From positions 1 to 20,468 of IMG/VR virus record IMGVR_UViG_3300012036_000035: a DNA stretch of 20,468 bases, one strand, 5' to 3'. Below the pieces are notes generated by a model. That model was not told the origin of the DNA. It worked only from the letters and a program-made list of their open reading frames with translations, and did no database searches. Shown here in pieces: positions 1 to 4,512 of the stretch. Source of the DNA: a virus. Numbering within the stretch: the first letter of the stretch is position 1; each line of letters begins with the position of its first letter. The translations under genes were made by a program, and so were the position numbers.

Positions 1-192
1 AATATTGTAATAAAAAGGACACTCAGTAATTGCACGAAATCAATTAATTAACTACTTTATCAGCACATACTGAAAGAGATAGATTCCCTGAGCGAGGATG
101 GAGCGCTAAGGGGGTTTATTTAAAAACCTGAAAGCCGGCTTTGTAAGTGTCCATCCCACTTGCGAGGTTCGGCTTTCTCTATTAAAAAAGGT
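1..192. other. Non-coding leader upstream of the replication initiator
   Basis: I see no supportable gene here. One frame is open from base 1 to a stop at 49-51, but its 16 codons show no recognisable protein end. Bases 37-60 are AT-rich. A weak -35/-10 pair (TTGCAC at 30-35, TACTTT at 53-58, 17 bases apart) is possible, but it matches consensus poorly. The main structure is the hairpin at 130-177, annotated separately. The next gene most likely starts at the ATG at 193. Confidence 0.5.
130..177 (-). terminator. Imperfect hairpin, possible minus-strand terminator or leader structure
   Basis: GAAAGCCG (130-137) pairs with CGGCTTTC (170-177) over 8 bp. Nested inside, AAGTG (145-149) pairs with CACTT (157-161) around a 7-base loop. 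The two stems are separated by an internal loop. AAAGCCGGCTTT at 131-142 is also a perfect 12-bp palindrome, so an alternative fold is possible. Read on the minus strand, the stem is followed within three bases by a run of five T (126-122), as in a rho-independent terminator for a leftward gene outside the window. No T run follows on the plus strand. It could instead be a leader structure regulating the gene at 193. Confidence 0.35.
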
Positions 193-1011
193 ATGGATAA
201 CGGATTTATAAAATTATACAGGCAGATTCAAGATTGGGAATGGTACTCTGATTCTGCGACTGTTCACTTCTTTATTCACTGCATACTTTCAGCTAATTGG
301 AAAGACAAAAAATGGCAAGGAGAGGATGTAAAAAGAGGGCAGTTTGTAACAAGTCTTGCTAATCTATCAGTGCAAACGGGGCTATCTGTAAAGCAGGTCA
401 GGAAAAGAATTGAGCGATTAGAGGATAGCGGAGAGATAGAGTCGGAGGGCACACAATGGACAAAGATAACAGTTTGTAAATACAATACTTATCAACCAAA
501 GCATGAAAATGAGGGCACACAAAGGGCACACAAAGGGCACACAAAGGGCACACAAAGGGCAACAACTAAAGAAGGTAAAGAATATAAAGAAGGTAAGAAT
601 AACATAGTCACTGCTCTCGCAGATGACGTACCGAATGCTTCTGATTCTGTTACATGGGAATCTGCTATTCGTATATCGGAGTATCTTTTTGAAGCCATTT
701 GTGAAAATGACCCGACCCACAAATATGTTGCCAATAAACCCTCGCTAAAAGGATGGGTAAAAGAGATTGATTTAGCGCTCAGGCGTGACGGGCGAACCGA
801 AGAACAATTCATGTTTCTGATTGATGCGGTTTTCAGGAACCGAAATCAGTTTTCTCAGCTATGGGATAAATGGAACATCAACATTCAATCGGGTAAAAAA
901 CTTCGTGAAAAATTTGACTCAATTAAAAACCAAATCAAAGCATCGAAAAATGGAAATACAGGAAAACCGACAAAAGGCGATCTCCACGTTGAACTCCTCC
1001 GAACCATGTGA
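193..1011 (+). CDS. Phage replication initiator / replisome organiser (DnaD-like, lambda O analogue)
   Basis: This 272-residue protein looks like a phage replisome organiser that binds the origin and recruits the helicase loader or helicase. Residues 1-100 contain the typical start (MDNGFIKLYRQIQDWEWY) and a winged-helix region around LSVQTGLSVKQVRKRIERLE. Residues 107-138 are a low-complexity linker encoded by an 11-bp tandem repeat and a Lys/Glu repeat. The C-terminal part, ending in WNINIQSGKKLREKFDSI, matches the pattern seen at the end of phage DnaD-type organisers. I chose the ATG at 193 because this family starts at this point; an in-frame TTG at 160 lies inside the upstream hairpin. 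AAAAGG directly precedes the ATG but is too close for an ideal SD. The end overlaps the next gene by about 60 bases. Family assignment is by motif recognition, not alignment. Confidence 0.75.
   Translation: MDNGFIKLYRQIQDWEWYSDSATVHFFIHCILSANWKDKKWQGEDVKRGQFVTSLANLSVQTGLSVKQVRKRIERLEDSGEIESEGTQWTKITVCKYNTYQPKHENEGTQRAHKGHTKGTQRATTKEGKEYKEGKNNIVTALADDVPNASDSVTWESAIRISEYLFEAICENDPTHKYVANKPSLKGWVKEIDLALRRDGRTEEQFMFLIDAVFRNRNQFSQLWDKWNINIQSGKKLREKFDSIKNQIKASKNGNTGKPTKGDLHVELLRTM
447..606 (+). other. Candidate replication origin with 11-bp iterons inside the initiator gene
   Basis: Four perfect head-to-tail copies of GGGCACACAAA occupy 513-523, 524-534, 535-545 and 546-556, and a fifth partial unit begins at 557. 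A separate near-copy (10 of 11 bases) lies at 447-457, starting exactly 66 bases (six units) before the first tandem copy. Just downstream, 561-606 has only 11 G/C in 46 bases. It is purine-rich on the plus strand and contains TAAAGAAGGTAA twice (567-578 and 585-596). Iterons next to an AT-rich segment, within the coding sequence between the DNA-binding and C-terminal domains of the initiator, is the arrangement of the lambda origin in gene O. The repeat is seen directly; origin function is inferred. Confidence 0.6.
513..556 (+). repeat. Tandem repeat, 4 x 11 bp (GGGCACACAAA)
   Basis: Four identical 11-bp units lie in direct tandem. Since 11 is not a multiple of 3, each unit is read in a different frame, so the encoded peptide (EGTQRAHKGHTKGTQRA) repeats only every three units (33 bases). 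Exact nucleotide identity despite changing reading frame indicates selection or recent duplication at the DNA level rather than for the peptide. This supports an iteron role. Confidence 0.95.
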
Positions 1012-2367: not shown

Positions 2368-4512
2368 GTGGTAGAAGAAATCGAATTTACCCTTGCCCCC
2401 CCTCAAGATGAGTTTATAAATTCCGATAATAAACGGGTTGCCATTATCGCAGCAAAAGGATATGGGAAGGCGCAACCATTATGGGAGCCTGTACTGACCC
2501 CGGCAGGTTTTGTTTACATGCACGAAATAGAAGTTGGGGATTATGTCATTGGCTCAGATGGCAAGCCAACGAAAGTCAACGCTATTCACTGGCAGGGCAA
2601 AAAAGATGTTTATGAAGTCAGGCTATCAGACCGAACTTCCACAAGATGCACTCTTGACCATCTATGGGCTGTGCAAACAGGCTCAATGAAACACAGAGGG
2701 AAAGGATTTAAGGTAAAAAGAACAAAGGAATTACTTACTGATTTAAAAACATCACAAGGATATAACAAGTGGCATTTACCATTATGCGAACCTGTTGAAT
2801 ATTCATGGAAACCGAATTTAAAAATACCCCCTTATGCTTTAGGGGCATGGTTAGGCGATGGAGGAATGAGTAAAAAATCAGAGGTTGTATTCTCCACTGA
2901 TTTAATGCAAACTAAATCAAACACAAAGTTTATACCAAAGAAATACTTGTATTCATCTGTTGAAGATAGAATAAACCTTCTTCGTGGGCTTATGGACACA
3001 AAGGGTAACGTTACTCACGTAGGAACTGGTGAATTTTGCACGACATCGGCACAGTTAGCAAGTGATGTTGTTTTTTTATGTCAATCATTAGGCCTGACAA
3101 GTAAAGCGAATAAGTATAGCCAAAGGAATATAAACCATCTTGATTACTATTTGGTTCTTATAAACTCACCTTTTAACCCGTTTTCTTTACCAAGAAAGGC
3201 AGATAAGTTTAACATAAACGCCACTCAAGGAAGGGTTCGTGGGATTGATGCTATTGAAAAAGTAGGCAGAGAGTTATGTCAGTGTATAAGCGTTGATGCG
3301 GAAGATGGATTGTATGTAACTAAAGATTTTATTGTCACTCACAATACCTGGTCGGGAGCCAAGTTCATTGCAAAGCAAGCGATTGAACAACCTGACGTTC
3401 AACATCTTATCATGCTGAACACGCTTGGTCAGGCAAGAGATATTTTCTATCAGGATATTGAACCGCTTTTGCAGGATTTGGGATGGCCTTATCACTTCTC
3501 CCCACAGTACGGGAACCTGAAAATATTTGACACAACTTTCCATGTAAGATCAGCCGAAAAAGACTCTATCAAGCGTATTGAATCTATCTATTACGGGTCA
3601 GGGTGGGCTGATGAGGTGTCGTTTTTTGATTATGAATCATTCAAAATATTCTTTTCACGTATTCGGGTTGGCAAGAGTCTTGTTCGGGTAACATCCATGC
3701 CCGATGACCCTGAGCATTGGATGTATTCGATGTTGGACAAAGCAAATTTTACTATTCACGAAAAGAGCTTGTACGATAATCCTGATAAGGAATTTGTCAA
3801 GAACTACGAAGAAATTCTGAATGCGATCTATGAAGGCCCACAGCTAAAGCGCTATCTGTCAGGGGAGCGAGTCAGTCTTGCAGGGATGGGAATATTCAAT
3901 GTTCACCCCGACATGAAAGATCATATTCCGATTGACCCAGAAGAAGATATTGTGCTGTCTTGGGATTTCAACGTAGCCTATCGGGCCGTGTCCGCATGGC
4001 AAAAAACAGGGAGAGATGAACAGGGGCGACCCATCGTGGCGTGCGTAAAATCATGGCAGATGAAAGAGGACATCGTGTATCAGGATGCAGTTGTTTTGGC
4101 AAAAGAGTTTAAAGATCATGAAGGAATTATTTATCTTGGTGGAGATGCAAGCGAAAATAAACGTAGCTCTCAGACCACAGAAAGTATTTGGCAGACAGTC
4201 AGAAGGGCGTTTAAAGACGAAGAAGTAAGCAGTCGAAGCATTGTTCCGATCAAGAATCCGAATGTAAAAGACACGGTTCAGTGCTGTAATTGGTCGTTTA
4301 AATCAGGATTGGTTAATTTTGACCAAGCTGAAAAAAATGTATATTCTTCATTACAGGCAGCAAAGGCAGACAAATATGGTGAAATTGACAAATCAGGTGA
4401 TAACTCCCCAGGCGGTTCAAAATCTCACGAAGCCGACACAGCGAGATACGCTTTATGGTACTTTTTCAAAAATCTCTACCCTGGTGGAACCAAAAAAGCA
4501 TGGGTCGTATGA
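2368..4512 (+). CDS. terL: Terminase large subunit precursor containing an intein
   Basis: This is the packaging motor: an N-terminal ATPase that moves DNA into the prohead and a C-terminal RNase H-like nuclease that cuts genome units. The precursor has 714 residues. Residues 35-326 are an intein, leaving a 422-residue mature protein, a normal TerL length. The Walker A motif is split: AAKGYGK (28-34) joins TWSGAKF (327-333) after splicing. Walker B is GWADEVSFF with D415/E416. Nuclease acidic residues are D533 (LSWDFN), D593 (YLGGDASENKRSS) and D690 (SHEADTARYALWYF). The start is a GTG one base after the holin stop; an ATG at 2366 leads straight into a stop. The end overlaps the portal start as ATGA. 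No small terminase gene is recognised nearby. Confidence 0.92.
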   Translation: MVEEIEFTLAPPQDEFINSDNKRVAIIAAKGYGKAQPLWEPVLTPAGFVYMHEIEVGDYVIGSDGKPTKVNAIHWQGKKDVYEVRLSDRTSTRCTLDHLWAVQTGSMKHRGKGFKVKRTKELLTDLKTSQGYNKWHLPLCEPVEYSWKPNLKIPPYALGAWLGDGGMSKKSEVVFSTDLMQTKSNTKFIPKKYLYSSVEDRINLLRGLMDTKGNVTHVGTGEFCTTSAQLASDVVFLCQSLGLTSKANKYSQRNINHLDYYLVLINSPFNPFSLPRKADKFNINATQGRVRGIDAIEKVGRELCQCISVDAEDGLYVTKDFIVTHNTWSGAKFIAKQAIEQPDVQHLIMLNTLGQARDIFYQDIEPLLQDLGWPYHFSPQYGNLKIFDTTFHVRSAEKDSIKRIESIYYGSGWADEVSFFDYESFKIFFSRIRVGKSLVRVTSMPDDPEHWMYSMLDKANFTIHEKSLYDNPDKEFVKNYEEILNAIYEGPQLKRYLSGERVSLAGMGIFNVHPDMKDHIPIDPEEDIVLSWDFNVAYRAVSAWQKTGRDEQGRPIVACVKSWQMKEDIVYQDAVVLAKEFKDHEGIIYLGGDASENKRSSQTTESIWQTVRRAFKDEEVSSRSIVPIKNPNVKDTVQCCNWSFKSGLVNFDQAEKNVYSSLQAAKADKYGEIDKSGDNSPGGSKSHEADTARYALWYFFKNLYPGGTKKAWVV
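2470..3345 (+). other. Class 3 intein inserted in the TerL Walker A motif
   Basis: This 292-residue in-frame insertion separates Lys34 and Thr327 of the P-loop. Block A starts with Ala (AQPLWEPVLTPAGFVY) instead of Cys or Ser. Block B is CTLDHLWAV with T95, H98 and W100. Block F is CQCISVDAEDGLYV with C306. Block G is DFIVTHN followed by Thr. Thus Trp at B12, Cys at F4 (C306) and Thr at G5 (T324) form the WCT signature of class 3 inteins, which use the block F Cys as first nucleophile and need Ser or Thr at +1; here +1 is T327. A degenerate LAGLIDADG region lies between the splicing blocks. The splice junctions follow directly from P-loop reconstitution and the terminal His-Asn. Confidence 0.9.

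Follow-up and report, generated by a model that had tools for sequence, protein, structure and literature searches.

The large terminase (TerL) is the commonest intein-bearing protein of mycobacteriophages, and in its classic TerL1-a form the intein is inserted in the P-loop between Lys and Thr (K↓T, where the arrow marks the insertion point); several TerL inteins were shown to splice (Kelley et al. 2016, PMC5050341). TerL inteins were reported also in crAss-like phages (PMC7886860) and in cyanophage Mic1 (PMC7156551). Class 3 inteins are defined by the absence of the A1 nucleophile and by a Trp-Cys-Thr (WCT) triplet at B:12, F:4 and G:5 (PMC5050341). As described in PMC5222942, the F:4 Cys is the first to attack the N-terminal junction, a branched intermediate is formed, and the +1 residue, which is Ser or Thr and rarely Cys, acts later. 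The Mycobacterium DnaB inteins of the solved structures 6bs8 (MsmDnaB1) and 6rix (MchDnaB1) were both named class 3 (PMC7664689). The intein studied here resembles them in splicing fold and WCT signature, and DnaB1 also lies in a P-loop; however, MsmDnaB1 and MchDnaB1 are mini-inteins without an endonuclease domain and are hosted by a cellular helicase, and in these respects our intein differs.

The window, by which we mean the whole stretch of DNA analysed, is a 20,468-base virus record. Its TerL open reading frame occupies 2368-4512 on the plus strand, begins with GTG, encodes 714 residues and runs uninterrupted through both exteins and the insert, with 0 stops and 0 frameshifts. It is divided as follows.

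2368-2469, plus strand: TerL N-extein, 34 residues, ending in Walker A GYGK (from the reading frame; equal in length to that of the intein-free relative L003 and 65% identical to it).
2470-3345, plus strand: intein assigned to class 3, 292 residues, precursor residues 35-326 (from the L003 empty site and intein homology).
3346-4512, plus strand: TerL C-extein from Walker A Thr+1, with the stop codon (Terminase_6N; 78% identity to L003).

By sequence, precursor residues 1-34 and 327-714 are the large terminase; Pfam Terminase_6N matches residues 327-493 (E 2.9e-9, over the curated cut-off), and the portal, head protease and major capsid genes follow downstream in that order. Residues 35-326 lie outside the terminase and match the Pfam family LAGLIDADG_3. 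The G+C content of the intein is 38.7%, against a mean of 44.6% around it, and 2.8% of other windows of sequence are equally low, in keeping with a separate origin.

Searching with the C-extein, no relatives were found in genome contigs, and one viral contig (L003, IMGVR_UViG_3300028376_000024) was found to encode a close TerL relative without an intein. Its N-extein of 34 residues ends in GSGK and is directly followed by TWSG, and it has the same TAA-T-GTG start arrangement as TerL of the window. At this natural empty site the sequence reads ...NKRVAIIAAKGSGK then TWSGARF with nothing between, whereas the window reads ...NKRVAIIAAKGYGK, a 292-residue insert and TWSGAKF; the precursor as a whole is ...AAKGYGK↓AQPLWEPV...DGLYVTKDFIVTHN↓TWSGAKF.... 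The empty site thus places the insertion exactly between the Walker A Lys and Thr, independently of any motif, at the K↓T point of a large terminase (GYGK↓T) that characterizes the TerL1-a type. The preliminary description of this DNA had located an intein at 2470-3345, between GYGK and T of the P-loop, and the L003 junction (GSGK-TWSG) bears this out to the base. With the border fixed, position 1 is neither Cys nor Ser, and the Ala start, the His-Asn end, Thr at +1, the precursor positions W100, C306, T324 and T327 and the spliced length of 422 residues (714 minus 292) were all given correctly. The homology check proposed for residues 35-326 also came out in favor of an intein, with a tblastn E value of 6e-51 against the best annotated phage record and of 9.4e-8 for the window intein by itself against 6rix, a sequence similarity that is far above chance.

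With tblastn, several hundred phage records were found to encode intein relatives (743 records cover at least 80% of the query), and an alignment query of viral contigs gave 550 relatives; searching the viral contigs with the intein alone gave 0 matches, its back-translated words being overly specific. Our sample of 102 relatives comprised 22 inteins of annotated phages and 80 of viral contigs, and no sampled relative was more than about 46% identical to the window intein. Junctions were read for 103 inteins, of which 97 follow Lys (usually within GK) and 101 are followed by Thr or Ser, and most of the sampled relatives lie, like the window intein, at the GK↓T point of a P-loop. Ends of annotated-phage inteins were left unadjusted, except for L008, where the end was set by THN/SHN.

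The residues that assign the intein to a splicing class are listed below with their counts among the 102 relatives, some of which lean towards agreement because the His-Asn ends of the 80 contig inteins were placed by seeking xHN near the predicted end.

2470-2472, plus strand: intein residue 1, Ala, in place of an N-terminal nucleophile (Ala in 57/102, Ser or Cys in 7/102).
2659-2667, plus strand: block B His64-Leu-Trp66, that is, B:10 His and B:12 Trp (His in 102/102, Trp in 98/102).
3283-3285, plus strand: block F Cys272 (F:4), predicted to be the first to attack (Cys in 102/102).
3337-3345, plus strand: block G Thr290-His291-Asn292, G:5 to G:7 (Thr in 101/102, His-Asn in 102/102).

These residues stand in the strings TLDHLW (block B), QCISVD (block F) and FIVTHN (block G). 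W66 is aligned with the Trp of 98/102 relatives and with that of 6rix, and the complete set H64, W66, C272, T290, H291 and N292 is found in 97/102. The +1 residue is Thr, as in 87 relatives, with Ser in 14. Judged from the aligned residues, the window intein is class 3 on every sequence feature of the definition. Several relatives depart from this pattern. Seven (L029, L043, L050, L054, L058, L066 and L102) have Ser or Cys at position 1 despite the block F Cys and THN, and are possibly dual-nucleophile or drifting class 3 inteins. In L017 and L023, two Vibrio phage TerL inteins, the block B Trp is replaced by Asn while the block F Cys and THN are kept, and their class 3 signature is, as aligned, incomplete. 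In the window intein the catalytic Cys forms part of a Cys-x-Cys pair (C270 and C272, window 3277-3285), present in 21/102 relatives, that could act as a redox lock.

To compare the intein with solved structures we used a profile built from 22 inteins (that of the window and 21 others). Its best matches were MchDnaB1 6rix (E 2.9e-29) and MsmDnaB1 6bs8 (E 1.4e-28), and in both the Trp, the Cys and THN were aligned. Modelled with AlphaFold (pLDDT 92.7, pTM 0.90), the window intein matched 6bs8 with Z 20.6 over 123 residues (rmsd 1.5 A), which is the best match to a structure made of a splicing domain only, and 6rix with Z 19.8. The predicted Hint fold is therefore nearest to known class 3 members. 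The match to PI-SceI (Z 22.8 over 273 residues; Z 22-23 over about 275 residues overall) reflects a common overall layout of Hint and endonuclease parts; unlike the window intein, PI-SceI is of the class 1 mechanism, with both half-domains complete and both acids present. The preliminary description had assigned the intein to class 3 and called this a minority mechanism. The full WCT signature and the class 3 identity of the nearest solved splicing domains support the assignment, but not rarity in this setting, as the 102 relatives suggest that class 3 chemistry is usual in this phage P-loop intein family.

We therefore consider it very likely that TerL carries, at K↓T of its Walker A motif, a class 3 intein that splices along the following path and whose endonuclease has decayed. 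Cys272, aided by His64, Trp66 and Thr290, would attack the Lys34-Ala35 bond to give a block F branched intermediate, and the N-extein would be passed to the hydroxyl of Thr+1. Asn292 would then cyclise, with His291 assisting, to release the intein, and an ester-to-amide shift would join ...GYGK-TWSG... into a TerL of 422 residues whose P-loop is complete, the predicted peptide being ...AAKGYGKTWSGAK. Before splicing, the ATP-binding loop would be split by 292 residues, so that the packaging ATPase should be off until splicing has occurred. This proposal is reasonable, as a P-loop intein in RadA was reported to disrupt ATPase function (cited in PMC6195587).

The class 3 account of the preliminary description was sound, but it overlooked the state of the LAGLIDADG endonuclease, whose two motifs are the following.

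2830-2862, plus strand: first LAGLIDADG motif (YALGAWLGDGG region), with the acid D130 retained (equivalent to PI-SceI D218).
2977-3006, plus strand: second LAGLIDADG motif (LLRGLMDTKG), with Lys178 replacing the catalytic Asp (equivalent to PI-SceI D326).

Both equivalences come from alignment through the intein profile, and D218 and D326 are the catalytic acids of PI-SceI, one at each motif. The second acid is Asp in 19 of the 22 annotated-phage relatives, the set in which it was counted; the 80 contigs were set aside for this count because the pattern used to search them required Asp or Lys there. The two acid positions are 48 residues apart in the window intein (the middle value is 92), with a loss of about 45 residues between the motifs. 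The intein has 292 residues, against a median of 349, and only two of the 103 inteins are shorter, SL2 (274 residues) and csAssE (241 residues), both of which have likewise lost the second Asp. The AlphaFold model is devoid of strands from residue 131 to residue 156 and has a pLDDT of about 51-66 over residues 131-150, and the first half-domain would accordingly consist of little beyond the LAGLIDADG helix. An active LAGLIDADG endonuclease has catalytic acids at both motifs and two complete half-domains, whereas here one acid is replaced and one half-domain is truncated; this apparent decay is the one unusual feature of the intein. With the second acid lost and the first half-domain truncated, we infer that homing was lost and splicing retained; by its residues, the intein probably still splices yet no longer homes. 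The element would then probably no longer be mobile and would persist by splicing well, as its inexact loss from this site would destroy an essential gene.

There is a small chance that the intein splices as proposed and that its endonuclease is nevertheless active, in which case the element would be fully mobile. D130 is retained, the AlphaFold model gives helix 2 and the second half-domain with high confidence, and the intein-free TerL of L003 is a possible target; moreover, Lys at the second acid position could be compensated, or DNA nicking could remain. However, PI-SceI uses acids at both motifs, the residues missing from the first half-domain include its strands, and the loss of the second Asp recurs in SL2 and csAssE. 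Slimmer is the chance that the intein has lost homing and is kept as a conditional switch, with slow or redox-dependent splicing at Cys272 delaying TerL activation. The M. smegmatis DnaB intein, which is also class 3, was reported to splice in this way (PMC6195587), and if such splicing applied here, the delay would time the onset of DNA packaging. It is highly unlikely that the intein is inactive in splicing and TerL a dead or split protein. Such a reading would fit the decay of the endonuclease part and the report of a pseudogene for a class 3-type intein of Arthrobacter FB24 (PMC3196547); but every catalytic splicing residue is intact, the frame is open across both exteins, Terminase_6N is recognized on the C-extein and the genes for portal, protease and capsid come next in order, and the decay is limited to the part dispensable for splicing. 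Least probable is a class 2 or other non-class-3 mechanism, where in class 2 Thr+1 would attack the N-terminal junction directly: class 2 inteins likewise lack Cys or Ser at position 1 (PMC5222942), and position 1 is Ala here, yet the block F Cys (102/102), Trp and Thr make up the full published class 3 triplet, and the best solved-structure matches are class 3.

The intein belongs to a known kind, as sequenced phages already include examples of class 3 inteins at the K↓T point of TerL. Among the loci read, the annotated TerL proteins of Murica, FishSpeaker, Synechococcus phage B23, SPLA3, DoctorFroggo, a Porphyromonas phage and MIZ5 carry class 3 signatures at K↓T or K↓S. The Murica intein (L019), which from its site we place in the TerL1-a group, has the same TerL K↓T site, Ala1, W, C, THN and Thr+1 as the window intein; it is only about 29% identical to it and has the second LAGLIDADG Asp. 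The finding is therefore ordinary in kind and leaves the known picture unchanged; its value is that it illustrates cleanly a class 3 phage intein that appears to be late in its homing cycle, with intact splicing residues, a broken endonuclease and an empty allele known from nature.

When the 103 inteins were placed in a FastTree tree, that of the window stood apart from the TerL inteins. Its nearest branch was L032, a phage intein in an SNF2 helicase (local support 0.82), followed by L029, another phage intein, in PhoH (0.91). Both share its GK↓T type of site, but they lie in other host genes, retain the second endonuclease acid and are 37-46% identical to it, depending on the alignment. As the nearest sampled relatives are in SNF2 helicase and PhoH genes, movement between P-loop genes is suggested. 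The simplest reading of the tree, whose deep branches have low support and whose sampling is limited, would be movement among unrelated ATPase genes with a common P-loop, and it suggests that these elements spread between genes sharing little beyond the GxGK(T/S) loop. One further relative, L040 (IMGVR_UViG_3300027964_000001), has its intein at 2501-3502 in a family A DNA polymerase (ERFVGK↓TLRHAY), at a point that looks like polymerase motif B and not a P-loop; this suggests that the GK↓T context, rather than the ATPase, decides the site.

The window and L003 are also related upstream of TerL. The C-terminal half of a DnaD-like replication gene (window 160-1011) is common to both (L003 about 1525-2416), with 74% DNA identity from window 607 onward, and in the N-terminal half DNA similarity to L003 was not detected. 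In each phage, the point at which similarity switches adjoins low-complexity repeats, as if the front domain had been swapped. Within this coding region, window 512-565 holds five near-perfect 11-base repeats (AGGGCACACAA), the period of which is not a multiple of three.
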